A DNA stretch of 48,083 bases, from the NCBI GenBank assembly GCA_028715415.1, contig JAQURX010000014.1, positions 1 through 48,083 of the forward strand. The letters are read 5' to 3'. The stretch comes from Candidatus Omnitrophota bacterium (GTDB lineage: Bacteria > Omnitrophota > Gorgyraeia > Gygaellales > Profunditerraquicolaceae). A program made the position numbers and the translations under genes. The notes beneath the pieces are model-generated. The model was not told the origin of the DNA. It saw nothing but the letters and a program-made list of their open reading frames with translations, and made no database searches. The first letter of the stretch is position 1; each line of letters starts with the position of its first letter. Below are positions 7,206 through 48,083 of this stretch, piece by piece.

Positions 7206-8084
7206 ATGAATTGGATGTATCTTGGAATAACTATAGCAATAGTTTTGTTTTTATCAGGAATTAGAATCGTTCGTCCTACACACAGAGGCCTTATTGAGAG
7301 GTTTGGAAAGTATAGCCGTTTTGCCAATCCGGGTTTTAATTGGATTTTTCCGGTAATTGAGAATATATATCAGGTAAATATTACCGAGCAGATGGTCGAT
7401 GCTGAGCCGCAGGAAATTATCACTAACGATAATCTTAATGCAAAGGTAGATGCGCAGGTTTATTTTAAGGTTACTCCTGAAGAACTGAAAGTAAAGAATG
7501 CAATATATAATGTAAATAATTATCAATATCAGATTGTAAATCTCGCACGGACTACACTGAGAAATATTATCGGTACCTTGACTTTAAAGTCAGCAAATAG
7601 TGAGCGTGGCAAGATCAACGCGGAATTACATAGAACGCTGATGGAAGAAACTGCAAGCTGGGGGATTGAAATTGTAAGAACCGAATTAAAAGAAATTGAC
7701 CCGCCCAAAGATGTTCAGGAAACCATGAATAAGGTTGTTAAGGCAGAGAATGAAAAGATTGCTGCTGTTGATTTTGCAACAGCTACAGAAACCGCTGCTG
7801 ATGGGCAGAAGAGAGCAGAGATTAAGAAAGCAGAAGGTATTAAACAGGCAAGAATTTTGCAGGCAGAAGGTGAAGCTGAGGCAATTAAGCTTGTAAACGA
7901 AGCAGCAGAACATTATTTTGTAGGAAACGCGCAAGTATTAAGAAAGCTTGAAGCAGTTGAACATGCGCTTGCAAATAATGCGAAAATAGTTGTTCCTTCT
8001 AACACAGAATTAGTAAATGTAATTGGTGAAATGGCAGGCTTCCTGCCGCTTAAGAGAGATACAAAGGAAGATTCAAAGAAATAA
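7206..8084 (+). CDS. SPFH/band-7 (slipin-like) membrane protein
   Basis: This 292-residue protein has an N-terminal membrane segment (about 4-20), the stomatin/prohibitin core beginning IVRPTHRGLIERFGKY, and a C-terminal Ala/Glu/Lys-rich coiled-coil region (about 175-235, KKAEGIKQARILQAEGEAEA) typical of the slipin/QmcA group. Such proteins form oligomeric membrane microdomain scaffolds, often with NfeD proteins or FtsH-type proteases; neither partner is nearby. A strong Shine-Dalgarno (AGGAGGT at 7195-7201) fixes the start. It lies 26 bp after purM, so it is probably transcribed with it, although no metabolic link is apparent. Confidence 0.92.
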   Translation: MNWMYLGITIAIVLFLSGIRIVRPTHRGLIERFGKYSRFANPGFNWIFPVIENIYQVNITEQMVDAEPQEIITNDNLNAKVDAQVYFKVTPEELKVKNAIYNVNNYQYQIVNLARTTLRNIIGTLTLKSANSERGKINAELHRTLMEETASWGIEIVRTELKEIDPPKDVQETMNKVVKAENEKIAAVDFATATETAADGQKRAEIKKAEGIKQARILQAEGEAEAIKLVNEAAEHYFVGNAQVLRKLEAVEHALANNAKIVVPSNTELVNVIGEMAGFLPLKRDTKEDSKK

Positions 8085-8094
8085 ATTTGTTCTT

Positions 8095-8336
8095 TTAATG
8101 AATCTGTCGTTTTTCTCGCTCAGGTAGATTTTGCCCCGCCTTTGGCGGGGCCGCCAAAGGTCTTTCGCATTTCGGTGGCTGCTGAACTCGCGCCTCGTGT
8201 TCTCACTCGGCGCTCGAACAGCATCGCCATCCCGATATTGCCGCGCCCGGTCGGTCGCGGCATCGGGATTCCCTCAATGCTCAAGCTGCTTTGGCTAAAA
8301 TCTACATTCGCTCGAACAAACAACAGATTCATTAAA
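8095..8336. repeat. Structured repeat element A (imperfect terminal inverted repeats around GC-rich hairpins)
   Basis: The left arm (8095-8135, starting TTAATGAATCTG) and right arm (8293-8335, ending CAGATTCATTAA) are imperfect inverted copies of about 41 bp, sharing TTAATGAATCTGT at the outer ends and TAGATTTT near the inner ends. Three further hairpins lie inside: GCCCCGCC-TTT-GGCGGGGC at 8133-8152, a GCTG..CGCC / GGCG..CAGC stem at about 8179-8223, and CCCGAT..GCCGCG / CGCGGC..ATCGGG at about 8230-8267. The folded form would be a cloverleaf-like structure. The interior is visibly much more GC-rich than its neighbours. A related left arm recurs at 47956-47997. No protein is encoded. Confidence 0.85.
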
Positions 8337-8357
8337 TTAGAAGTAAGGAAAGTTAAA

Positions 8358-8936
8358 ATGCCTTGGTGGTTAAATATATTTTGGGATGTTGTTAAATTTT
8401 TATTAGAGAAAATTAGTTATTTTAAGCCTCCGGAAGATAGACCCGAAGTTATTCTTGATAGAATAGAAGGCGATAGGGTTAAAGATGAAAATTATTTTGT
8501 TGCTAAGAATATAGGTTCTAGGGCAGCTCTTAATATTGAGATATCAACATTGAATCTGATTACAAAAATGCCTTTTAACTTGAGTGAAGATATCTTTAAT
8601 TTAAGATTTGAATCTACCAAGATTGCTAATTTAGATTCAAAACAGGAAAAACGAATCGATTACAATGTTTATATTGTTGAAAAAAATGGTAACAAAGTTT
8701 TAAGCGATTCGGGGAAAAAGTTATATTTTATGCCTATGTTTAATCAAAAATATGCTCAGACAGATATTCATTTACTATTTGAATATAACGATTCATCTGG
8801 CAGAAGATATGTAACGCATTTTAGCATAGGAAAGAATGGCATAGACACAAAAGGAGTTTATTTAATTAGAAAGCCCGAATTAATTAACAAGATGTTTAAG
8901 CGATACGGCATAGTTTATAAGGAAAATAATAAGTAA
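8358..8936 (+). CDS. Orphan hypothetical protein between repeats A and B
   Basis: This protein has 192 residues and I do not recognise it. The open frame extends upstream into repeat A, but the ATG at 8358 with AAGGAAAG just upstream (8345-8352) is the credible start. The N-terminus MPWWLNIFWDVVKFLLEKISYF is amphipathic or hydrophobic and may associate with the membrane. The remainder is mixed alpha/beta with no cysteines or recognisable catalytic motif. Codon use is very AT-rich. It lies between repeat A and repeat B and separates the SPFH gene from purD, which suggests it arrived as part of an inserted cassette. Confidence 0.7.
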   Translation: MPWWLNIFWDVVKFLLEKISYFKPPEDRPEVILDRIEGDRVKDENYFVAKNIGSRAALNIEISTLNLITKMPFNLSEDIFNLRFESTKIANLDSKQEKRIDYNVYIVEKNGNKVLSDSGKKLYFMPMFNQKYAQTDIHLLFEYNDSSGRRYVTHFSIGKNGIDTKGVYLIRKPELINKMFKRYGIVYKENNK

Positions 8937-8968
8937 TTAAGGGAACGGTTCTATTTTTTAGTAATATA

Positions 8969-9145
8969 GCTTTATGGTTTTTGCTGTAGGCGCATTAGAA
9001 GATTTTTGGCACATCTATTAACATTAGTGCGCAAGGATTTACGAGGAGCGGAGGACTATCCTGTAAGATAGTGCTACCCGAAGCGACGAAGTAAACCGCA
9101 GCGCACGGCAAAAATCTTCAGCGCCGGAAGCAAAAACCATAAAGC
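8969..9145. repeat. Structured repeat element B (long hairpin)
   Basis: The left arm begins GCTTTATGGTTTTTGCT at 8969 and its inverted copy ends at 9145; the arms match over about 40 bp with small bulges. Nested inner pairings follow: GTGCGC (9027-9032) with GCGCAC (9101-9106), GGATTTAC with GTAAACC, and ACTATC with GATAGT near the apex. Almost the whole 177 bp can fold into one long interrupted hairpin. A second copy in the opposite orientation starts at 47996 and runs off the window. The element ends a few bases before the purD start and supplies part of its leader. Confidence 0.88.
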
Positions 9146-9158
9146 AAGAGTGAATATT

Positions 9159-10472
9159 ATGAAAATTTTAGTCATTGGTTCTGGGGGAAGGGAGCATGCG
9201 CTGGTGTGGAAGATAGCCCAGTCGCATCTTGCTAAAAAGATATTCTGTGCTCCGGGAAATGGCGGAATTGCTGAAATTGCCGAATGCATAGATATAAAAG
9301 CAGATGATATCCAGAGGCTTTTAGAGTTTGCGCGTAAAGAAAAAATTGACCTTACAGTTGTTGGCCCGGAAGCTGCCCTTGCCCAAGGCATAGTTGATGA
9401 ATTCATTAAATATAAATTAAGAATATTTGGGCCATCAAAAGCTGCTTCTCAAATGGAAGGCAGCAAAGTTTTTTCCAAAGAATTAATGAAGAAGTATGAT
9501 GTGCCGACAGCTGACTTTAAAATATTTGATAATCCGAATGAAGCTTATAAATATATTGAGGAAATCGGTGTTCCTTGTGTAATCAAGGCAGATGGCTTGG
9601 CGCAGGGAAAAGGTGTAGTGGTTGCTAAGTCGATTGAAGAGGCAAAAAAAGCAGTTGAGGCAATTTTAGTTGAGAAAATCTTTGGGGCAGCCGGGAATAA
9701 AATTATAATTGAAGATTGCCTAATTGGCGAGGAAGCCTCAATTTTAGTTATAACAGACGGCAAAAACGTAATTCCGCTTGCCTCAGCCCAGGACCACAAA
9801 AGAATTTTTGATTATGATGAAGGGCCAAATACAGGCGGCATGGGCGCATATTCACCTGCTCCGGTTGTAACAGGTGAATTATTGCATGAAATAATGGAAA
9901 AAGTAATACATCGCACGATAGATGGCCTTGCTAGAGAAGGCATAGTATACAAAGGAGTTTTGTACGCGGGAATTATGATTACCAAAGATGGGCCTAAGAC
10001 ATTAGAGTTTAATGTGCGTTTTGGAGACCCGGAAACACAGGCAATATTACCCAGATTAAAAACAGATCTTTTAGAAGTAATGCTCGCAGTCTCAGAAGAT
10101 AAACTTAGCACTATATTAAAAAGAGGCGGTTTGTCATGGCATGAGCAAGCTGCGGTTTGCGTTGTTTTAGCTTCCGGAGGCTATCCGGGTAAATATGATG
10201 CAGGAAAAGAAATTTTCGGCTTAGGCGAAGCAGGAAAATTAAAAGATATCGTGGTTTTTCATGCTGGAACTAAAAAGTTGCAAGTTGCAAGTTTCAAGTC
10301 TCAAACAAAAATTATTACAAGTGGCGGACGAGTTTTAGGAGTAACCGGATTAGGAAATACTATAAAAGAAGCAATTGATAAAACTTATCAGGCGGTAGAA
10401 AAGATAAAATTTGAAGGAATGCATTATAGGAAAGATATCGGTAGAAAAGCATGTGGAGGAACAAATGAATAA
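9159..10472 (+). CDS. purD: Phosphoribosylamine-glycine ligase PurD
   Basis: This is GAR synthetase, an ATP-grasp enzyme joining glycine to phosphoribosylamine; 437 residues. I chose ATG 9159 (MKILVIGSGGREHALVWK) over an in-frame GTG at 9150 because the protein then begins exactly at the family's N-terminal Rossmann motif. AAGAG at 9146-9150 may serve as a weak ribosome site. The ATP-grasp motifs CVIKADGLAQGKGVVVA and LEFNVRFGDPETQAILPRL are intact. A 7-bp tandem repeat at 10275-10302 inserts a short KKLQVASFKSQ-like stretch just before the C-terminal TSGGRVLGVTGLG motif. Its end overlaps purE by 8 bp. Repeat B lies immediately upstream, so transcription may have to pass through a long hairpin. 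Confidence 0.96.
   Translation: MKILVIGSGGREHALVWKIAQSHLAKKIFCAPGNGGIAEIAECIDIKADDIQRLLEFARKEKIDLTVVGPEAALAQGIVDEFIKYKLRIFGPSKAASQMEGSKVFSKELMKKYDVPTADFKIFDNPNEAYKYIEEIGVPCVIKADGLAQGKGVVVAKSIEEAKKAVEAILVEKIFGAAGNKIIIEDCLIGEEASILVITDGKNVIPLASAQDHKRIFDYDEGPNTGGMGAYSPAPVVTGELLHEIMEKVIHRTIDGLAREGIVYKGVLYAGIMITKDGPKTLEFNVRFGDPETQAILPRLKTDLLEVMLAVSEDKLSTILKRGGLSWHEQAAVCVVLASGGYPGKYDAGKEIFGLGEAGKLKDIVVFHAGTKKLQVASFKSQTKIITSGGRVLGVTGLGNTIKEAIDKTYQAVEKIKFEGMHYRKDIGRKACGGTNE
10275..10302 (+). repeat. 7-bp x4 imperfect tandem repeat inside purD
   Basis: The units are AAGTTGC, AAGTTGC, AAGTTTC and AAGTCTC. The insert lies in the loop before the conserved C-terminal SGGRVLGVTG motif. The CAAG spacing of seven bases matches the repeats in purL and purQ. 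Confidence 0.88.
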
Positions 10473-31408: not shown

Positions 31409-31454
31409 TTTATTATAGTAACATACGTTCTTTCAATATGTTAAGTTGATTTTG

Positions 31455-31546
31455 AAAAAGGCAAACTATCTGAAAAGATAGGGCGCAAAGCTATTAGGAT
31501 CTAATTCTAGCGGGGTTCCGTAGAGATGATTGCCAGCTGCCGAAAT
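31455..31546 (+). ncRNA. Cyclic-di-GMP-I (GEMM-I) riboswitch aptamer
   Basis: The core elements appear in order. GGCAAAC at 31460-31466 is followed by a small hairpin CTATC-TGAAAA-GATAG with a GAAA-type loop, then GGGCGCAAAGC (31480-31490), where the consensus is GGACGCAAAGCC. A second arm follows (GGATCTAAT ... GATGATTGCC) with the CTAA/AUG tetraloop-receptor pattern and an apical stem TCTAGCGG-GGTT-CCGTAGA. CTGCC (31537-31541) closes the outer helix with GGCA. This is the GEMM-I layout of two side-by-side helices. A terminator follows and the ORF after it is a giant adhesin, both usual for this class. Confidence 0.85.
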
Positions 31547-31649: not shown

Positions 31650-34600
31650 TTGATTCCTAAGCATTTAAGAATATTTAGCGCAAAATGGGTCTATAGAGAA
31701 ATGAAAAAAAATTTAACCATAATTATATTGATTTTTGTGATAATACATTTTGTTTCTCTCCCGCTTTTTGCACTCCCTGAAGGCCAAGTTGTGGAATCAG
31801 GGAGTGTTGTCTTTGATCAGCCCAATGCCACAACCCTAAACATTACCGCAAGCGATAAATCAATCATCAATTTTAATACTTTTAATATTGGCCAAAACGA
31901 AACAGTAAATTTTTACCAGCCGAATTCTTCTTCAACAGTTTTAGGTAGAGTTTTAGGGGCAGGCGCCAGCAATATTAACGGCTCACTTACCGCAAACGGG
32001 ATTCTTTTTTTAACCAACCCAAACGGATTTAATTTTGGCCCTCAGGCAAATGTGCAGGTTAATTCATTAATTGCCTCAACGCTTGAAATATCAACAAATA
32101 ATTTTATCAATGGAAATTATATTTTCAACCACAGAGAAAACGCTGCTTATGCCCGTATAATCAATGAAGGAATTATTGAAGGAAATAATATCGCACTTGT
32201 AGCAAGCGCTGTTAAGAATACCGGAGTAATCCTTGCTAAAGCTGGCACTGCTCATTTAGCATCAGGAGACAAAACAACCATTACAATTGATAATCGCGGT
32301 TTGATCCAGGTTGAGATTAATGAAAAGACAAGCGGCAAGGTTTATGATTCCAATGGTGTTGCTTTAAAGGATGCAGTAGCAAACTCAGGAACGGTTGAAG
32401 GTGCACAGGTATATATGAGCGCAAAAACCGCCAGTGATATTTTTGAGAACGCAGTTAACCAAACTGGTATTATAAAAGCAAATGGCCTTGTTAATGAGAA
32501 TGGCATAATAAGAATAGTTTCCAATGAAAAGATTAAACTTTCTGGAAGCCTTACTGCAGATAAAGGAGAGATAAAAGTATCTTCCGAAAAATTTGTTAAC
32601 GTTAGCGCTGAATTAAATATTTCCGCGGCTACTGCTGAAATAAATTCAGATAAAGATTTATTGGTTGATGCTAATATAACTAATGATTCGGGAGATTTGC
32701 ATTTATTTGCGGATTATGATGGGGATGGTGTAGGAGAATTTACGCAGTCAACCGGGGAAATTTATGCTAAAGATTCTGGCGATGTTTATATTGATGGCTC
32801 TGGGGTAATGACCTTAAATAAAATTAAAACAGATTTAGGCGCAATTAAGATAGGAACTCTTAGAGCTCCGAGTAGTATTTCCGGTAAGCCGCATTATATC
32901 CATACAGTAGGAGATTTTGAATTTGACTCAAGCAGTGATGGAGCGATTACTACGACAAGAGGAGATGTTTTAAGGTTTAATCCTTTAGGCTCTCTAGTTA
33001 TTGAGGCAATAAATGGGGCAATAAAGTTCCTTGAAGGTGTAGTAATCAATGTTGCCCAAGCGGAATTTATTGGAAACAGCCTTTTTGTTAACACTATTTC
33101 TTCTTCAGTTACCTTCTATAAGAATATCGGAGATTTTAATATTACAAGCTTTAGTACTACCGATGATTTAGCGACCTTAGAAGGAGAAGATGTTAAGGTA
33201 ACCTATCTAAAGAGCAATGATGTTACATTAAAATCAGATAATTCAGTTAATTCAACCCCCGGAGTTATTATTCAAGCTCCAGAGGTAAGAGTTATTGCTC
33301 AAAAATTCGGCTCAATTGAAACACCTCTTAATATTAAATCTCCTTTAATTTACTTAGAGAGATTACATGGCGCAATTGAAATTTTGGAAAGTTCAGGCAT
33401 TGGGACAAGTGTCATGTTAAGAGGCCCCCCGGATGGCTTTGGCGCAATTATATATAACCACGATACAAATCTCACCCTTAAAGCCGAAGTAGTCCGCCTA
33501 ATTGGAACGGATTCTATCCAGTTATACGGGAATATTACTTTCTCTAGTCTTGAATGTACCATTCCAAATAAAGAAATCTATTTTGAAGCAGGGAAAACTT
33601 ATACCATTACTGGAGTTTTTCATTTTAGTGGCAAGCTGGAAGATGACGGCACTATATCTTACATACACCTCAAGTCTTCAGAAGATGGCGTCAGGTGGTT
33701 TATAGACCCACAAGGTGCCCATGAGCTTTCATATGTAAGAGCTGAAGATTCCTATAACCTTGATCCAAGGCTTATTTTAGGTACATCCCTTGACCACGAT
33801 GCTAATAGCTACAACTGGGATGCTCCTCGTTATTGGTTAGGAACAACTTCTACCTCATGGAATAATACTCTTAATTGGTCTGCTACTGATGGAGGAGCTG
33901 GTGGTGCAGGCGTGCCTACCAGTGCCGATGATGTGTATTTTTCTTCCACCAGAAATAACGCATGTTCAATTGACACTACTGCTGTTTGCTTGTCGTTTAC
34001 CATTGGAGACTTATACACCCAGACGGTATCAATGGCAGCTGGATCATCGCTTGCTGTAACAAACGATCTTACCTTAACTGGTTCTGGAGCACTTTCTCCT
34101 GCAGGGCGTCCGATAAGCGTTGGCGGTAATTGGACTGTAGGGGCAAATGGCGTCTTTACACGCGGTACCAGCACAGTGACTTTTAACGGCACAAACGCTG
34201 TTAATCCGCAGCAGATTAATTCAGGTGGCACTACTGCAGCAACTAAAACCTTCTATAATATTATCATTAATAATACCGGTGCAGGAGTAAAGCTTGTTAC
34301 GAATAGTCTTACTCAGTCTACCGGAGGCACCCTTACTATGACCGCAGGTACACTTGATTTAAACGCTCTTACTTGGACATTAGGAGCCGACCTTTCAGTT
34401 ACAGCCGGGACCATCGCCATAGGGACAGGCTATTTAGACTGTGCTAGTTATGATTTAACCGTAGGAACAGGAGGCACTGTTACTATCGGCACAACAGGTA
34501 CCTTGAGAGTTACGGATTTTAGTGTTACAAATACTGGGATTTTTACCTGTACAGGCAATGCTACTCTTAATATACTTGGCAATGTTGTTATTACAAGCTC

Positions 34601-37562
34601 CGGTTGGTCGGCGGGGAATTCTACTATATATATGAAATCAACAACACAAACTATCAATGCTTCCCAGGCAATATATAATTTACATGTTAATTGTAACGAT
34701 AGAAGTTCTAATTCTTTAACCATTGTTACTAACGATTTAATTTGTAATGGCGATCTACTCTTTGAGGATGAGGATGCCAATACTTATATTGATACAAATT
34801 CCAAGAATTTGACTGTTTATGGCACGATTACCTTGAATTGGGATGGTATTATACGCCTTAACGCGGCAAGCGCGCCTTCTACTCTTACTATAGGTAATGA
34901 TATGGTCTTTATTTCTGTGCATGGCACTCCTCATGTCCAACTATACAACAGCACAAATACTATTTCTATAGTTGGATACGGCGGCTTAAGAACAATACCC
35001 GAGACTATTACAGGCCTTGATAATAATAAGCAGGTAACTTTGAATAATATAAGTTTAACTACCGCCCAGACTCTAACTGGTTCTTCAGCTATAACATTAG
35101 CTGGTAGCGCTACGTTAGCAGGGATAACCTTAAACGGTGCTACTGCCACATTGAATGTCGGCGCACAAACCTTAACCATGACCGGAAATCTTCTTGTCAC
35201 AACTGGCATAGTAACCATCACAAGCGGCGGATCTATTGCTTTAGGATCTAATAGCTTTACTAATTCAGGCGGCACAGGAGTTACTTCAGCAGGTACAATT
35301 ACTTGCGGTGCTTTTACTTCTTCAGGCACATTTGCAAATAATGCGGGTAGTGCTATTAATGCTTCAGGTAATGTCGCTATATCAGGCACATTCTCTACTC
35401 CTGCCAATAACACCTTAACTATGACCGGAGCAGGAACAACGCTTAATGCTTCAGTAGGTATTGGAAATTTACAGATTAATAACGGAGCAAGCGTTTCGAT
35501 ATCTACCAATAACTTATCAATAGGCGGCACATTAGTAATAGGCCAGGGTACAGGCGGCACAAGCTGTTCGTTGGATACTAACTCAAAGAATCTTACAGTT
35601 GTAGGTACTACCACAGTAAATAGCGAAGGAGTATTAATACTTACTGCAGGGGCCGCTACTTCGACAATGACATTTACGGGCGATTTTACTAATTCGGGTA
35701 TAGTTAGGGTAGTTGATGTTAGTAATGCTAGAACATCTTTAGTAGGAGCAACTGGCGCGTTAAGGAATTTCTCTGGTAATGGCCTTACTTTTAATAGCAG
35801 GATTATTAATTTGAATAATATTAAATATAATCCGGCATTTACTCCTGCTTCAAGCGAAGGGGCAATTTTAACTGGTAATTGCACATTTGCTTCTGTAATT
35901 ACTCTTAATGGAGGTTCTGTAAATACAGGCAGTTATACCTTAACTGTTCAGAATACAATTACAATTAATTCTGGCACTATTCTTACTTCTGGAGGAATAA
36001 TCGATGCCGGAACAAACACTTTTTCTTTGCTAGGGGGAACAGTCCAATCAGGTGGCACAATTATTTGCGGTGACTTTATATCTAGTGGCGGAAATTATGT
36101 TAATAACTCTGGGTCTATTATTAATTCAAGTGGTAGTGTTACGATTACCGGTACATTTACTACTCCGACTAATAACACTTTAACTATGACAGGTGCTGGT
36201 AAAACAATTAATGCTTCGGCCGGTATTGGTAATTTAATTATTAACTCAAGCGGTACAGTTAGTGTCTCTACTAACGCTTTAAGTGTGGGTGGTAATTTAA
36301 CTATTCAAGCAGGTATTTTTGATTCTGGCGGTTTGGCAATTAATGTAACGGGTAATTGGAATAATAGCGGAGGCACCTTTACACATAGTAATAATACTGT
36401 TACTCTTAACGGTACCGCCCTGCAGACCGTTACCTCAAACGGCTCAAGTTTTAATATTCTAACCATCACTAACACCTCAACTGTCGGCGTTGCATTTGCT
36501 GATAGATTGCAGGTAGCAACATTAAATGCAACAGCCGGAGTTAAGAAATTAAGTTTTGCCGCAGCTTCTTCTGCAAGCCCGCATACAATAAGCACGACAT
36601 TTAATATTGCAGGGTCCGCAGGAAATCTTTTAACCCTGGCTCCTTCAGCAAGCAATACTACTTGGTATATAGATGCGCCTACAAGTTCTGTCAGTTACGT
36701 AAGTGTTAGTTATTCTTCTGAAGCTTCAGGTAAACTTTTAACTGCAACAAATTCTACAGACGCAGGGAATAACGCTAATTGGATATTCCCGGGATATCTT
36801 AAAATTACCGGCACAGGCACAATGACAGCAGGGGGCTCTCAGATAATTACGATTACTGCTTATGATGGAAATGGCAATATCTCTACTTCATATTCCGGAG
36901 ATAAGAATCTAATCTTCTCAGGTGCCAATAGTTCACCTAGCCCTGTTACAAGCCCGACTGCAACAAACAAGAGCAGCTCTGATACAAATTTTGGCTCAAC
37001 AACAGTTGTAACATTTGCTAATGGAGTTGGTTCTTCAACTGTAAAATTATACAAGGCGGAAACTGCTTCTCTTGCTGTAACCGATGGAGTAATCAGCACA
37101 AGCCAGGATGCATATAAGCTAAGTGTTGTTGTTTCAGTAGGGGTAAAGAATCAATTAGTTTGGGCAACTCAGCCAACTCAGTCAGTTACCAGCGGTACAA
37201 CCTTACCGGCATTTTCTATAGAAATTACTGATAGCTATGGCAATAGAACAACGGATAGTGATAATATTGCAATTACTGCGAGTTCTGGCTTATTAAATGG
37301 CTCAACTATGAAGTCCGCAGTAAATGGCTTAGCGACTTTTAATAATGTATCCGTGTTTACAGCGGGTAATATTACTTTAAAAGGCACAGCATCCGGGCTT
37401 ACTTCTACTGCTTCTTCTAATCTGGTAACTGTTAATGGATCAGGCTCTGAATCACAAGGAGAGAGTGTTTTGTTTAGAGGTAGTTCCATAATGCCTCAGC
37501 CAATAATAGAATATATTGCGCCTCTTTCTTTTATTTATAACTATATATATGGCTACAAATAG
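31650..37562 (+). CDS. TpsA-like giant exoprotein/adhesin with TPS (haemagglutination activity) domain
   Basis: This protein has 1970 residues from TTG 31650, which has AGAAGGG ten bases upstream; ATG 31701 is an alternative start giving a conventional signal peptide (MKKNLTIIILIFVIIHFVSL). Cleavage is expected after LFA at about residue 41. Residues about 42-330 form the TPS domain recognised by TpsB, with GRVLG and the diagnostic NPNG (123-126). The rest is low-cysteine, Thr/Ser/Gly/Asn-rich repeats expected to form a beta-helix: WLGTTSTSWNNTLNW at about 730, then many GNLTI/GTLTM-type strands, including two long repeats. The last about 260 residues look like Ig-like invasin domains (FSIEITDSYGNRTTDSDNIAI). 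The end (YIAPLSFIYNYIYGYK) is hydrophobic-aromatic. It is the export partner of the upstream fusion protein and lies under riboswitch control. Confidence 0.9.
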   Translation: MIPKHLRIFSAKWVYREMKKNLTIIILIFVIIHFVSLPLFALPEGQVVESGSVVFDQPNATTLNITASDKSIINFNTFNIGQNETVNFYQPNSSSTVLGRVLGAGASNINGSLTANGILFLTNPNGFNFGPQANVQVNSLIASTLEISTNNFINGNYIFNHRENAAYARIINEGIIEGNNIALVASAVKNTGVILAKAGTAHLASGDKTTITIDNRGLIQVEINEKTSGKVYDSNGVALKDAVANSGTVEGAQVYMSAKTASDIFENAVNQTGIIKANGLVNENGIIRIVSNEKIKLSGSLTADKGEIKVSSEKFVNVSAELNISAATAEINSDKDLLVDANITNDSGDLHLFADYDGDGVGEFTQSTGEIYAKDSGDVYIDGSGVMTLNKIKTDLGAIKIGTLRAPSSISGKPHYIHTVGDFEFDSSSDGAITTTRGDVLRFNPLGSLVIEAINGAIKFLEGVVINVAQAEFIGNSLFVNTISSSVTFYKNIGDFNITSFSTTDDLATLEGEDVKVTYLKSNDVTLKSDNSVNSTPGVIIQAPEVRVIAQKFGSIETPLNIKSPLIYLERLHGAIEILESSGIGTSVMLRGPPDGFGAIIYNHDTNLTLKAEVVRLIGTDSIQLYGNITFSSLECTIPNKEIYFEAGKTYTITGVFHFSGKLEDDGTISYIHLKSSEDGVRWFIDPQGAHELSYVRAEDSYNLDPRLILGTSLDHDANSYNWDAPRYWLGTTSTSWNNTLNWSATDGGAGGAGVPTSADDVYFSSTRNNACSIDTTAVCLSFTIGDLYTQTVSMAAGSSLAVTNDLTLTGSGALSPAGRPISVGGNWTVGANGVFTRGTSTVTFNGTNAVNPQQINSGGTTAATKTFYNIIINNTGAGVKLVTNSLTQSTGGTLTMTAGTLDLNALTWTLGADLSVTAGTIAIGTGYLDCASYDLTVGTGGTVTIGTTGTLRVTDFSVTNTGIFTCTGNATLNILGNVVITSSGWSAGNSTIYMKSTTQTINASQAIYNLHVNCNDRSSNSLTIVTNDLICNGDLLFEDEDANTYIDTNSKNLTVYGTITLNWDGIIRLNAASAPSTLTIGNDMVFISVHGTPHVQLYNSTNTISIVGYGGLRTIPETITGLDNNKQVTLNNISLTTAQTLTGSSAITLAGSATLAGITLNGATATLNVGAQTLTMTGNLLVTTGIVTITSGGSIALGSNSFTNSGGTGVTSAGTITCGAFTSSGTFANNAGSAINASGNVAISGTFSTPANNTLTMTGAGTTLNASVGIGNLQINNGASVSISTNNLSIGGTLVIGQGTGGTSCSLDTNSKNLTVVGTTTVNSEGVLILTAGAATSTMTFTGDFTNSGIVRVVDVSNARTSLVGATGALRNFSGNGLTFNSRIINLNNIKYNPAFTPASSEGAILTGNCTFASVITLNGGSVNTGSYTLTVQNTITINSGTILTSGGIIDAGTNTFSLLGGTVQSGGTIICGDFISSGGNYVNNSGSIINSSGSVTITGTFTTPTNNTLTMTGAGKTINASAGIGNLIINSSGTVSVSTNALSVGGNLTIQAGIFDSGGLAINVTGNWNNSGGTFTHSNNTVTLNGTALQTVTSNGSSFNILTITNTSTVGVAFADRLQVATLNATAGVKKLSFAAASSASPHTISTTFNIAGSAGNLLTLAPSASNTTWYIDAPTSSVSYVSVSYSSEASGKLLTATNSTDAGNNANWIFPGYLKITGTGTMTAGGSQIITITAYDGNGNISTSYSGDKNLIFSGANSSPSPVTSPTATNKSSSDTNFGSTTVVTFANGVGSSTVKLYKAETASLAVTDGVISTSQDAYKLSVVVSVGVKNQLVWATQPTQSVTSGTTLPAFSIEITDSYGNRTTDSDNIAITASSGLLNGSTMKSAVNGLATFNNVSVFTAGNITLKGTASGLTSTASSNLVTVNGSGSESQGESVLFRGSSIMPQPIIEYIAPLSFIYNYIYGYK
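35285..35540 (+). repeat. Adhesin internal long repeat, copy 1
   Basis: About 256 bp encoding a block starting SAGTITCGAFTSSGTF and including LTMTGAGTTLNASVGIGNL. It corresponds closely in length and protein sequence to copy 2 at 36048-36305, with many synonymous differences. Confidence 0.88.
36048..36305 (+). repeat. Adhesin internal long repeat, copy 2
   Basis: About 258 bp encoding SGGTIICGDFISSGGNY and LTMTGAGKTINASAGIGNL, the counterpart of copy 1. The spacing of about 760 bp between copies suggests an ancient segmental duplication followed by divergence. Confidence 0.88.
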
Positions 37563-42247: not shown

Positions 42248-44222
42248 AAGTTTAGTCATTGTAGAGTCGCCAACAAAAGCAAAGACTATAAGCAAGATCC
42301 TCGGTAAGAATTTTTCCGTGGTTTCTTCTATGGGGCATATTATTGATTTACCTAAAAAGAAGCTTGGGGTAGATATTGAGAATAACTTTGAGGCGGAATA
42401 CGTAGTTATTCCCGGGAGAAAGAAGCTCCTGGATACTTTAAAAAAAGAGGCAAAGGATAAAGACAATATCTTTATGGCAACCGACCCTGATAGGGAAGGA
42501 GAGGCAATCGGCTGGCAGCTTAAAGAGAATCTTTTTAAGAAAAAAAAGGTTTTAAGGGTTGTTTTCCATGAAATTACATCAGAAGCTGTTAACGCCGCAT
42601 TCAAACACCCCAGAGAATTTGACCTAAATATGATTGAGGCGCAAAATGGCCGTAGGATATTGGACAGGATTGTAGGCTATTTCTTAAGCCCTTTATTATG
42701 GAAGAAGCTTGCGCGCGGCTTAAGCGCAGGAAGGGTGCAGTCTGTTGCTTTGAAATTGATAGTGGACAGAGAAAGAGAGATTGAAAAATTTATTCCCGCT
42801 GAATATTGGGAGATTGAAGCGCTTTTAAAGAAATCCGGTGATGCTTTTAGCGCAAAGCTGGATAAGATTGAAGGTAAAAAAGCCGAAATTAAGGCTAAGG
42901 AATCGGCAGAAGCAATTGTTAACGAGTTAAAAGAAAAGAAATTCATCGTCTCTGATGTAAAGAATACCAAAAAAAGAAGATTTGCATCCCCTCCTTTTAT
43001 TACCAGCACTCTTCAACAGGAAGCATTTAACAAATTAAAGTATAATGCCACCAAGACGATGATTATTGCCCAGCAATTATATGAAGGTATAAATATAGGC
43101 AAGGAAAATCCTGTTGGCTTGATTACTTATATGCGTACGGATTCGCCGCGGGTTGCTCCCGAAGCAATAACCGAGGTCAGGAATTTTATAAGTAAGCAAT
43201 TTGGAAAGGAATACCTTCCTGAAAGCCCCAATGTCTATAAAGTTAAAAAATTAGCGCAGGAAGCCCATGAAGCTATCAGGCCAACGATGGTGAAAAGCTC
43301 AGCTGAAAGCTTAAAAGAATTTCTAACTCCTGAACAATTTAAATTGTATGAGTTAATTTATAATCGTTTTGTCTCCAGCCAGATGACTCCGGCGGAATAT
43401 GCTGTTATCAGTGTTGATATTGAGGCGGATAAATATTTATTTACTGCTTCCGGAAGCGATTTGGTTTTTGATGGTTTTATGGCTATGTATAAAAAGGAAG
43501 ACGAGGAAGATTCTGAAGAAAAAGGCGATGAGGAGAAGAAGAAAAACAAGATTCCTGTTTTAGTAAAAGGCGATTATCTGGAATTGGCAGGGATTAACCC
43601 TTCTCAGCATTTTACCAAGCCGCCGCCGAGGTATTCCGATAGTTCTTTGGTAAAAGCGCTGGAAGAAGAAGGGATTGGAAGGCCTTCAACTTATGCTCCG
43701 ATTATCCAAACGCTTATTTTGCGTGATTATGTTCGTAGGCTTAAAGGTTATTTTTCTCCTACGGAATTAGGGTTTAAAGTTTGCGACCTATTGGTTGAGT
43801 ATTTTCCAAAAATAATAGATGTGAAATTTACCGCGCTTATGGAAGAGGAATTGGATGAGATTGAAGAAGGCAAATTTGACAAAGTAAAGGTTCTGCAGGA
43901 ATTTTACGCACCATTTAAGGAAAAGCTTGATTATGCACAGGAGCATATTAAAAAGGAAGTTATTACAACAGATGAAGTTTGTGAAAAATGCGGTAAGCCG
44001 ATGGTTGTGAAATGGGGCAGGCGTGGGAAATTCTTAAGTTGTTCAGGATTCCCGGATTGCAAATTCTCCAAGTCAATTACCACTAAAGTTAAATGTCCTG
44101 CGCCAGATTGCGGGGGAGAATTAATTGAGCGGCATTCAACGCGCGGATTTTTCTATGGCTGTTCAAATTTCCCTAAATGCACATTTACTTCGCGGACACT
44201 GCCGGAAACTAAAGAAGAGTAA
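42237..44222 (+). CDS. topA: DNA topoisomerase I
   Basis: This type IA topoisomerase relaxes negative supercoils; 661 residues, short compared with the E. coli enzyme. The Toprim domain (LVIVESPTKAKTI, then MATDPDREGEAIGWQL) is followed by the catalytic GLITYMRTDSPRV with the active Tyr at about 302, and GIGRPSTYAPII. Only two C-terminal C4 zinc fingers are present (CEKCGKPM ... CSGFPDC and CPAPDCGG ... CSNFPKC, about 582-652). It overlaps the recombinase start by 1 bp. A highly acidic run EEDSEEKGDEEKKKNK lies at about 421-436. Confidence 0.97.
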   Translation: MKDKSLVIVESPTKAKTISKILGKNFSVVSSMGHIIDLPKKKLGVDIENNFEAEYVVIPGRKKLLDTLKKEAKDKDNIFMATDPDREGEAIGWQLKENLFKKKKVLRVVFHEITSEAVNAAFKHPREFDLNMIEAQNGRRILDRIVGYFLSPLLWKKLARGLSAGRVQSVALKLIVDREREIEKFIPAEYWEIEALLKKSGDAFSAKLDKIEGKKAEIKAKESAEAIVNELKEKKFIVSDVKNTKKRRFASPPFITSTLQQEAFNKLKYNATKTMIIAQQLYEGINIGKENPVGLITYMRTDSPRVAPEAITEVRNFISKQFGKEYLPESPNVYKVKKLAQEAHEAIRPTMVKSSAESLKEFLTPEQFKLYELIYNRFVSSQMTPAEYAVISVDIEADKYLFTASGSDLVFDGFMAMYKKEDEEDSEEKGDEEKKKNKIPVLVKGDYLELAGINPSQHFTKPPPRYSDSSLVKALEEEGIGRPSTYAPIIQTLILRDYVRRLKGYFSPTELGFKVCDLLVEYFPKIIDVKFTALMEEELDEIEEGKFDKVKVLQEFYAPFKEKLDYAQEHIKKEVITTDEVCEKCGKPMVVKWGRRGKFLSCSGFPDCKFSKSITTKVKCPAPDCGGELIERHSTRGFFYGCSNFPKCTFTSRTLPETKEE

Positions 44223-45091
44223 TGCAAAAGCACATTGAAAAGTTCATCCGTTACCTGGAAATTGAGAAGAATTATTCAAAACATACTATTTTAAATTATA
44301 ATTTGGATTTGGAAAATTTTAAATTATTTGTCGGCGACCTTGAATTAGAAAAAATAGATTATCTTGCCTTAAGAAGATATCTGGCTGTTTTAAAAGAAAA
44401 GAAATTAAGCAGCCGGACGGTTGGAAGAAGGTTGTCCAGCCTGCGCAGTTTCTTTAAATTCTTAGTAAGAGAAGCTTATCTAAAGACAAACCCGATTTTA
44501 GCTCTCTCAAGCCCCAAATTAGACAAGCATCTGCCTTCTTTTATGACCGAAGAAGAGGTGAAGGGGTTAATTGAGTCAGCGTTTCCTAAGGATGAAAAAG
44601 ACGAATTGAGCCTGCGTGACAGGGCTATTTTAGAGACGTTTTATTCTACGGGGATTAGGATCTCGGAGCTTGCCGGGCTTAACCAGCAGGATGTAGATTT
44701 TATCAGCGGGATTGTAAAAGTCCTTGGAAAAGGGAGAAAAGAACGTATTGTCCCGATAGGAGAAACGGCAATTATAACAATCAGGAAATATCTGGAAAAA
44801 AGAAAAAAGCAAACCGATACACTTTTTCTTAATAAAAACGGAAGCCGTCTTACAACACGCGGCTTAAGGGATATCGTACATAAATATATTTTACGCGCCG
44901 GTATAAAACAAGGAGTTTCGCCGCATACATTCAGGCATTCTTTCGCAACGCATCTATTAAACCGCGGTGCAGACTTGCGTACAGTGCAGGAGCTTTTGGG
45001 GCACGCCAATCTTTCCACGACCCAGATTTATACGCATCTTACTACGGAAAGATTGAAAAATGTTTATGATAAAGCTCATCCTCATGCTTAA
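44222..45091 (+). CDS. XerC/XerD-type tyrosine recombinase
   Basis: This protein has 289 residues. An N-terminal SAM-like core-binding domain (about 5-88) precedes the catalytic domain with Arg in STGIRISELAGL, the HTFRHSFATHLL box, GHANLSTTQIYTH and the nucleophile Tyr in that last motif. Length and the dprA-topA-xer order match chromosomal Xer recombinases, which resolve chromosome dimers at dif, rather than phage integrases. XerC and XerD cannot be told apart from sequence alone here. No dif-like site was identified in the window. Confidence 0.93.
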   Translation: MQKHIEKFIRYLEIEKNYSKHTILNYNLDLENFKLFVGDLELEKIDYLALRRYLAVLKEKKLSSRTVGRRLSSLRSFFKFLVREAYLKTNPILALSSPKLDKHLPSFMTEEEVKGLIESAFPKDEKDELSLRDRAILETFYSTGIRISELAGLNQQDVDFISGIVKVLGKGRKERIVPIGETAIITIRKYLEKRKKQTDTLFLNKNGSRLTTRGLRDIVHKYILRAGIKQGVSPHTFRHSFATHLLNRGADLRTVQELLGHANLSTTQIYTHLTTERLKNVYDKAHPHA

Positions 45092-47955: not shown

Positions 47956-47997
47956 CTAATGAATCTGCCGTCTTTTCTCGTTCAAATTAGACTTTGC
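47956..47997. repeat. Element A left-arm-like repeat at window end
   Basis: The sequence beginning CTAATGAATCTGCCGT and running to AGACTTTGC matches the left arm of element A at 8095-8135 over about 40 bp with few differences. It joins the element B copy directly, without a gene between them. Confidence 0.85.
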
Positions 47998-48083
47998 TTT
48001 ATGGTTTTCGCTTCCGTGCACTCAAAAATTTTTGCCGTCGGCTGCGGTTTATCCCCTTCGGGGATTTCGCCAGTAGGATTGTA
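47996..48083. repeat. Element B copy, truncated by the window edge
   Basis: It begins GCTTTATGGTTTTCGCTTCC and follows the reverse complement of element B (8969-9145) through ATTTTTGCCG, GCTGCGGTTTA and CTTCGGG. It also contains a local TCCCC-TTCG-GGGA hairpin absent from the first copy. The rest lies outside the window. Confidence 0.87.

Follow-up and report, generated by a model that had tools for sequence, protein, structure and literature searches.

Facing pairs of different long hairpins, empty or enclosing a foreign-looking gene, as a candidate mobile cassette of Omnitrophota

In a Candidatus Omnitrophota bacterium, a small AT-rich orphan gene lies within a purine gene cluster, between an SPFH/Band 7 gene and purD, flanked by two different structured repeats denoted A and B. 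Did these components come together independently, at a site that tolerates insertions, or do they form a unit that moves and carries genes, as proposed in the initial annotation of this DNA? The window, that is, the whole stretch analyzed (48,083 nucleotides), is the entire contig C14, one of the 39 contigs that make up a 1.85-Mb draft genome; all genomes considered here are draft MAGs. The answer developed below is that positions 8094-9145 are probably a mobile gene cassette of Omnitrophota that is non-autonomous and is here in its filled form.

Structured elements around an orphan gene

The locus comprises the following features (window coordinates):

7206..8084, + strand: SPFH/Band 7 gene (Pfam); left flank of the insertion hotspot
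8094..8336, + strand: element A, a predicted structured DNA hairpin of ~240 bp; left end of the putative cassette, 5' end outward; outer arms TTAATGAATCTG.../...CAGATTCATTAA, with variable hairpins inside
8358..8936, + strand: cargo ORFan, 192 aa, 29% GC, in the same direction as SPFH and purD
8941..8952, + strand: short motif GGGAACGGTTCT, between the cargo and element B
8969..9145, - strand: element B, a predicted structured DNA hairpin of ~177 bp, in the orientation opposite to A; right end of the putative cassette
9159..10472, + strand: purD (Pfam), ATG at 9159; right flank of the insertion hotspot
47957..48083, + strand: partial second element in which an A-type outer arm encloses a B core; interrupted where C14 ends
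Unit end sequences, where precise junctions would be expected: AATGAATC or GCGTCTG

Element A starts 9 bp downstream of the SPFH stop codon, and element B terminates 13 bp upstream of the purD ATG. The original description of A and B as structured repeats around an AT-rich orphan between SPFH and purD, a context borne out by Pfam, holds for coordinates, folding, copies, and GC content. The right edge of the window had to be reinterpreted: positions 47956-48083, previously taken for an A-B pair with no gene between, are a single hybrid element, the last 127 bases of the window being a truncated A-armed B element inside which the contig breaks. The complete homologue of this element (C1:157782-158038) is paired with a member of a third family, D, which was recognized adjoining A and B, and the genome's genuine A-B pair without a gene lies at C7:22001-22427, with a gap of 24 bp. 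Elsewhere in the window, a c-di-GMP-I riboswitch (31450-31544; 72.9 bits) lies upstream of a 1970-aa ORF (31650-37562).

When folded as single-stranded DNA and compared with 200 shuffles, A and B reach z = -11.1 and z = -8.2, respectively. The genome holds 7 full copies of A and ~12 full or near-full copies of B, and across the families, the elements are 160-240 bp long. In an alignment of 49 copies of A from this, related, and named genomes, 36 of the 51 predicted pairs show double-sided changes with pairing retained; within a subset of 50 pairs, 35 are changed on both sides, standard pairs make up 95.9% of the cells, and covariation scores 0.362, compared with 0.118 after shuffling and at most 0.069 when the partners are slid. 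The outer arms vary from copy to copy, yet are complementary inside each copy; the elements are conserved as structure while their sequence varies. Nested palindromes occur in several loci (L008/L014, L010, L020, and L023), where B cores sit within A-type or other outer arms, and arms and cores therefore appear to have been exchanged between families. Short GGGACTGTCCC-type palindromes were seen by eye just outside several elements (L075, L140, L160, L171, and other flanks).

The mispairs bear on whether such a fold functions as DNA or RNA, given that RNA under selection should tolerate G-U far more than A-C. Element A alone contains 28 G-U and 36 A-C combinations (one doubtful pair excluded), and A, B, and D together contain 94 and 70 (doubtful pair included), whereas RNase P RNA from 30 related genomes, in the same analysis, yields 156 and 25 (~6:1). 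The difference between the combined elements and RNase P (Fisher p = 2e-9) is indicative only because the element copies are related to each other, and the structures came from an RNA program. Double-sided changes without an excess of G-U over A-C of the kind seen in RNase P suggest that the hairpins act as DNA rather than RNA.

Facing pairs, their cargo, and their spread

Pairs, defined as neighboring near-complete elements with under 1.5 kb between them, were collected by profile scans of all loci read, that is, the stretches around elements. In Omnitrophota genomes, 49 of the 51 pairs are convergent, with the 5' ends outward, and 46 of these 49 are heterotypic (18 BD, 16 AD, and 12 AB); in a larger set, 53 of 59 are convergent (binomial p ~1e-25). 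The orientation labels of B and D were set after the first pairs had been viewed, but this amounts to two binary choices, which cannot yield 49 of 51. A and B thus do not occur independently, which would have spoken against a cassette; together with D, they form convergent pairs that obey a fixed rule of orientation. The spacing is bimodal: 35 pairs are separated by 7-156 bp and 13 by 550-1448 bp, with one at 327 bp. When the content between paired elements was listed, as the initial annotation had recommended, the short gaps contained no ORF and the long gaps contained one or two ORFs that fill most of the space. Pairs with and without an intervening gene thus both occur, and the cassette interpretation turned out to be largely right, the A-gene-B arrangement of the window being one of the long-gap pairs. 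An empty unit spans ~360-450 bp, and 35 of the 39 units for which both neighbors were called lie between tandem genes. A partner within 1.5 kb was found for 83 near-complete elements and not detected for 53, some loci ending early.

The genes held in these units look foreign. Their GC content is below that of the flanks in all 14 cases with enough flank (mean difference -13 points, p = 1e-4), and in 14 of 14 units, they are co-directional with the neighboring genes. The orphan of the window has 29.0% GC, compared with 38.8 +/- 2.0% for the 28 other ORFs of the window; it has no match in Pfam, nothing above chance in NCBIfam (best E 0.07-0.08), and a marginal match in PADLOC (E 0.005). Neither 58 relatives nor 384 genomes of the phylum yielded a convincing homologue. 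A single-sequence structural model, whose quality (pLDDT 38.7) does not allow a fold search, consists of an N-terminal helix and a beta-rich part. Other cargo is more readily classified: that of L174 matches TIR_2 (1.6e-14), that of L137 matches NYN (6e-13) and the PADLOC model HEC-09 (1.8e-60), and that of L247, adjoining the SPFH gene of G120, matches AbiGi (5.3e-18). Weaker matches are to SIR2, CAP12-type TIR, and 8xMP, and several other cargo ORFs, like the window orphan, belong to no family. At the sequence level, some cargo therefore resembles single-gene phage-defense proteins (TIR, SIR2, NYN, and others), and the benefit conferred by the cargo is, perhaps, phage defense.

The junction at which the window orphan resides is an insertion hotspot. 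The gene order of a purM-like gene, SPFH, and purD is widespread across the family and the order, and in 14 relatives, purD directly follows SPFH at a distance of 0-60 bp, representing the empty locus that the initial annotation had suggested looking for; the orphan is absent elsewhere and, accordingly, is not conserved at this position without the repeats. Elements of the A, B, or D type are present at 25 of 68 SPFH-purD junctions, around or beside differing genes. In G118, a TIR-domain protein lies between an A-armed B element and D; in G083, A and D flank an ORF whose TIR-type match is sub-threshold; in G025, A is followed by a SIR2-like ORF; in G019, D is followed by a TIR/deoxyribosyltransferase-like ORF; and in G097, two D elements flank two membrane-type ORFs. 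In G004, G005, G011, and several genomes of genus g12, extra genes are found at the junction without any A, B, or D element, so that this site also gains genes by other routes. On contig C26 of G000 (L215:4922-5630), a second SPFH fragment (90% amino acid and 79% nucleotide identity) is followed by a lone D and other genes; this is probably a contaminating contig from another Omnitrophota genus.

Pairs recur at unrelated sites. One D-B unit is present at three sites in the genome of the window, with 94.5-97.8% identity over ~360 bp and unrelated flanks, and one A-D unit is present at two sites, with 91.6% identity. Among the loci read, only empty pairs were found repeated, and no cargo turned up at more than one site. 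The search for target-site duplications that had been advised was negative: over 40 units, the longest word shared by the flanks averages 3.98, compared with 3.81 after shuffling, which is not above chance. Element A was detected in 37 of 58 genomes of close relatives (the present genome included). In a sample of 384 genomes from across the phylum, it occurs in 51, which extend to several other families within the class; among named genomes with an exact match to the A core, 19 of 20 are Candidatus Omnitrophota. A full A element is also present in L145 (SBBM01000028.1), from a MAG labeled Planctomycetales, which could reflect misbinning or transfer. No plasmid relatives of the 8094-9145 block were found, and a literature search recovered no description of such elements in Omnitrophota.

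A proposed mobile unit and competing explanations

On the reading that we favor, the unit would consist of two different long hairpins, of the A, B, or D type, that face each other, 5' ends pointing outward, and in its filled form would hold one or, rarely, two foreign AT-rich genes. The hairpins would most likely be recognized as folded DNA, either single-stranded or cruciform, by a trans-acting enzyme. The unit would insert in gaps between co-directional genes, so that the cargo could be read with its neighbors and exposed to selection. Cargo might enter through exchange between units, via recombination in their shared ends, or through fresh capture. That such a unit carries cargo, as had been proposed, is consistent with the filled and empty forms; mobility, exchange of cargo, and its acquisition are inferred. 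Weighing against this reading, no mobilizing enzyme turned up, target-site duplications stay at chance level, 53 near-complete elements have no detected partner, repeated units are empty ones only, and some SPFH-purD junctions gained genes without any element.

If the locus were instead a passive hotspot, A, B, and D would have spread independently, as structured repeats, into tolerant gaps, and the orphan would have arrived separately, outside any unit. The accessory genes without elements at the SPFH-purD junction of several relatives, the abundance of single elements, and the tendency of contigs to break at such sites all fit this explanation. However, the near-uniform orientation, the heterotypy, and the bimodal spacing of the pairs would be unexpected from independent insertions, and the pairs recur as one block amid unrelated flanks, all of which makes a passive hotspot rather unlikely. 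The recurrence of pairs as whole blocks also argues against a structured RNA role, with the hairpins serving as terminator, insulator, or leader elements that flank a gene. The position of units between tandem genes, the placement of A upstream in 18 of 21 cases, and the strong covariation are compatible with such a role, but G-U is not favored over A-C as it is in the RNase P RNA of the relatives, and B is found in both directions relative to transcription. Rfam models gave no match for the elements, and a known structured RNA family was rejected on this count; overall, a role as RNA seems very unlikely.

Among known systems, integrons have attC sites whose structure is conserved while the sequence varies, and the Omnitrophota elements behave in the same manner; furthermore, a unit mostly holds one AT-rich gene, often an orphan or defense-like, that points in the same direction as its neighbors. 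An integron cassette with attC-like sites is nevertheless barely credible here, given that each gene is accompanied by two different facing hairpins of 160-240 bp, not one site, that the units are single and dispersed, not arrayed head to tail, and that, in the 58-genome set, element-bearing genomes lack IntI. The integron was rejected because the only true integrase among the 58 relatives (TIGR02249 above the cut-off) belongs to G047, which has no A or B match. This gene (G047:C16:3307-4263; L274) encodes a genuine integron integrase, with a score of 414 bits. In the genome of the window, tyrosine recombinases match TIGR02249 only below the cut-off and were read as XerC/XerD; one such XerC/XerD-like recombinase is encoded at 44222-45091 of the window. 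By eye, the GTTRRRY core of attC sites was not seen at element ends. The elements also bring to mind ERIC and BOX, modular palindromic repeats that are long and imperfect, with modular cores and arms; the fixed convergent pairing and the gene-holding forms set the present elements apart.

A derivative of a classical insertion sequence, namely, a MITE or mobile insertion cassette that carries a passenger and relies on a transposase encoded elsewhere, would account for the inverted ends, a passenger gene in place of the transposase, the short empty forms, and the dispersed copies with unrelated flanks, and MIC231-type cassettes and MITEs are similarly non-autonomous units that are empty or contain a passenger gene (PMC6542083, PMC10969869). 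The MITE-like character suggested in the initial annotation is, however, only a loose fit, and we consider such a derivative unlikely: the ends are different 160-240 bp hairpins and not matching short terminal repeats, their sequence is not fixed while pairing is kept, target-site duplication was not detected, and no related insertion sequence was found in the stretches read around elements. The absence of a transposase noted in the window extends to all 14 cargo-bearing pairs (0/14), and a compound transposon with its own transposase was rejected on this count.

REPINs, moved by Y1 (RAYT-type) transposases, are inverted hairpin doublets between genes (PMC3116915) and, together with BIMEs and RAYTs (PMC3116915, PMC6006769), share with the present units a non-autonomous, intergenic organization as inverted doublets of hairpin-forming repeats. 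Y1 transposase genes are present in 43 of the 58 relatives, with a weak association with A (p = 0.03) and none with B. In contrast to REPINs, in which 20-40 bp REP sequences of one family form the doublet, the elements here are 160-240 bp long, belong to three families paired heterotypically, and can contain a gene. The link to Y1 genes is weak and partial: no Y1 gene could be detected in 9 of 42 element-bearing genomes (these being incomplete MAGs), and an A, B, or D element is near the Y1 gene in only 1 of 10 Y1 loci read. A different repeat is commoner there, the motif GGG(G/A)ACGGTTCT, which occurs 5 times in the 10 Y1 loci, compared with ~0.035 times per 3.3 kb elsewhere; such a short GGGGAC-type repeat fits the terminal-repeat-associated Y1 group that has been described (PMC6006769), and the motif is possibly a repeat of a family in that group. 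It is also present at 8941-8952 of the window and in L213, L128, and L130. In view of the Y1 distribution and this other repeat, mobilization by Y1/RAYT enzymes was rejected, and a REPIN-like element appears improbable.

Implications for gene uptake in Omnitrophota

More tentatively, heterotypic pairs of long hairpins, conserved as DNA structure, might constitute a separate class of gene-capture elements. These would insert between co-directional genes across the class with the help of an enzyme acting in trans and, like integrons but with no integron involved, would carry foreign genes about one at a time, several of which look like effectors of phage defense; we put this forward as possible rather than probable. 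If the cassette reading that we favor is right, Omnitrophota would possess a gene-cassette system with structured-DNA ends and a trans-acting enzyme, and this system would explain the uptake of single foreign genes inside operons of these uncultured bacteria. The counting of G-U against A-C offers a simple test that can be applied to a conserved fold to ask whether DNA or RNA is the acting molecule. The facing hairpin pairs are a sequence signature by which cargo, new candidate defense genes among it, can be located, and, again if this reading is right, would open a direct route to a new recombinase.
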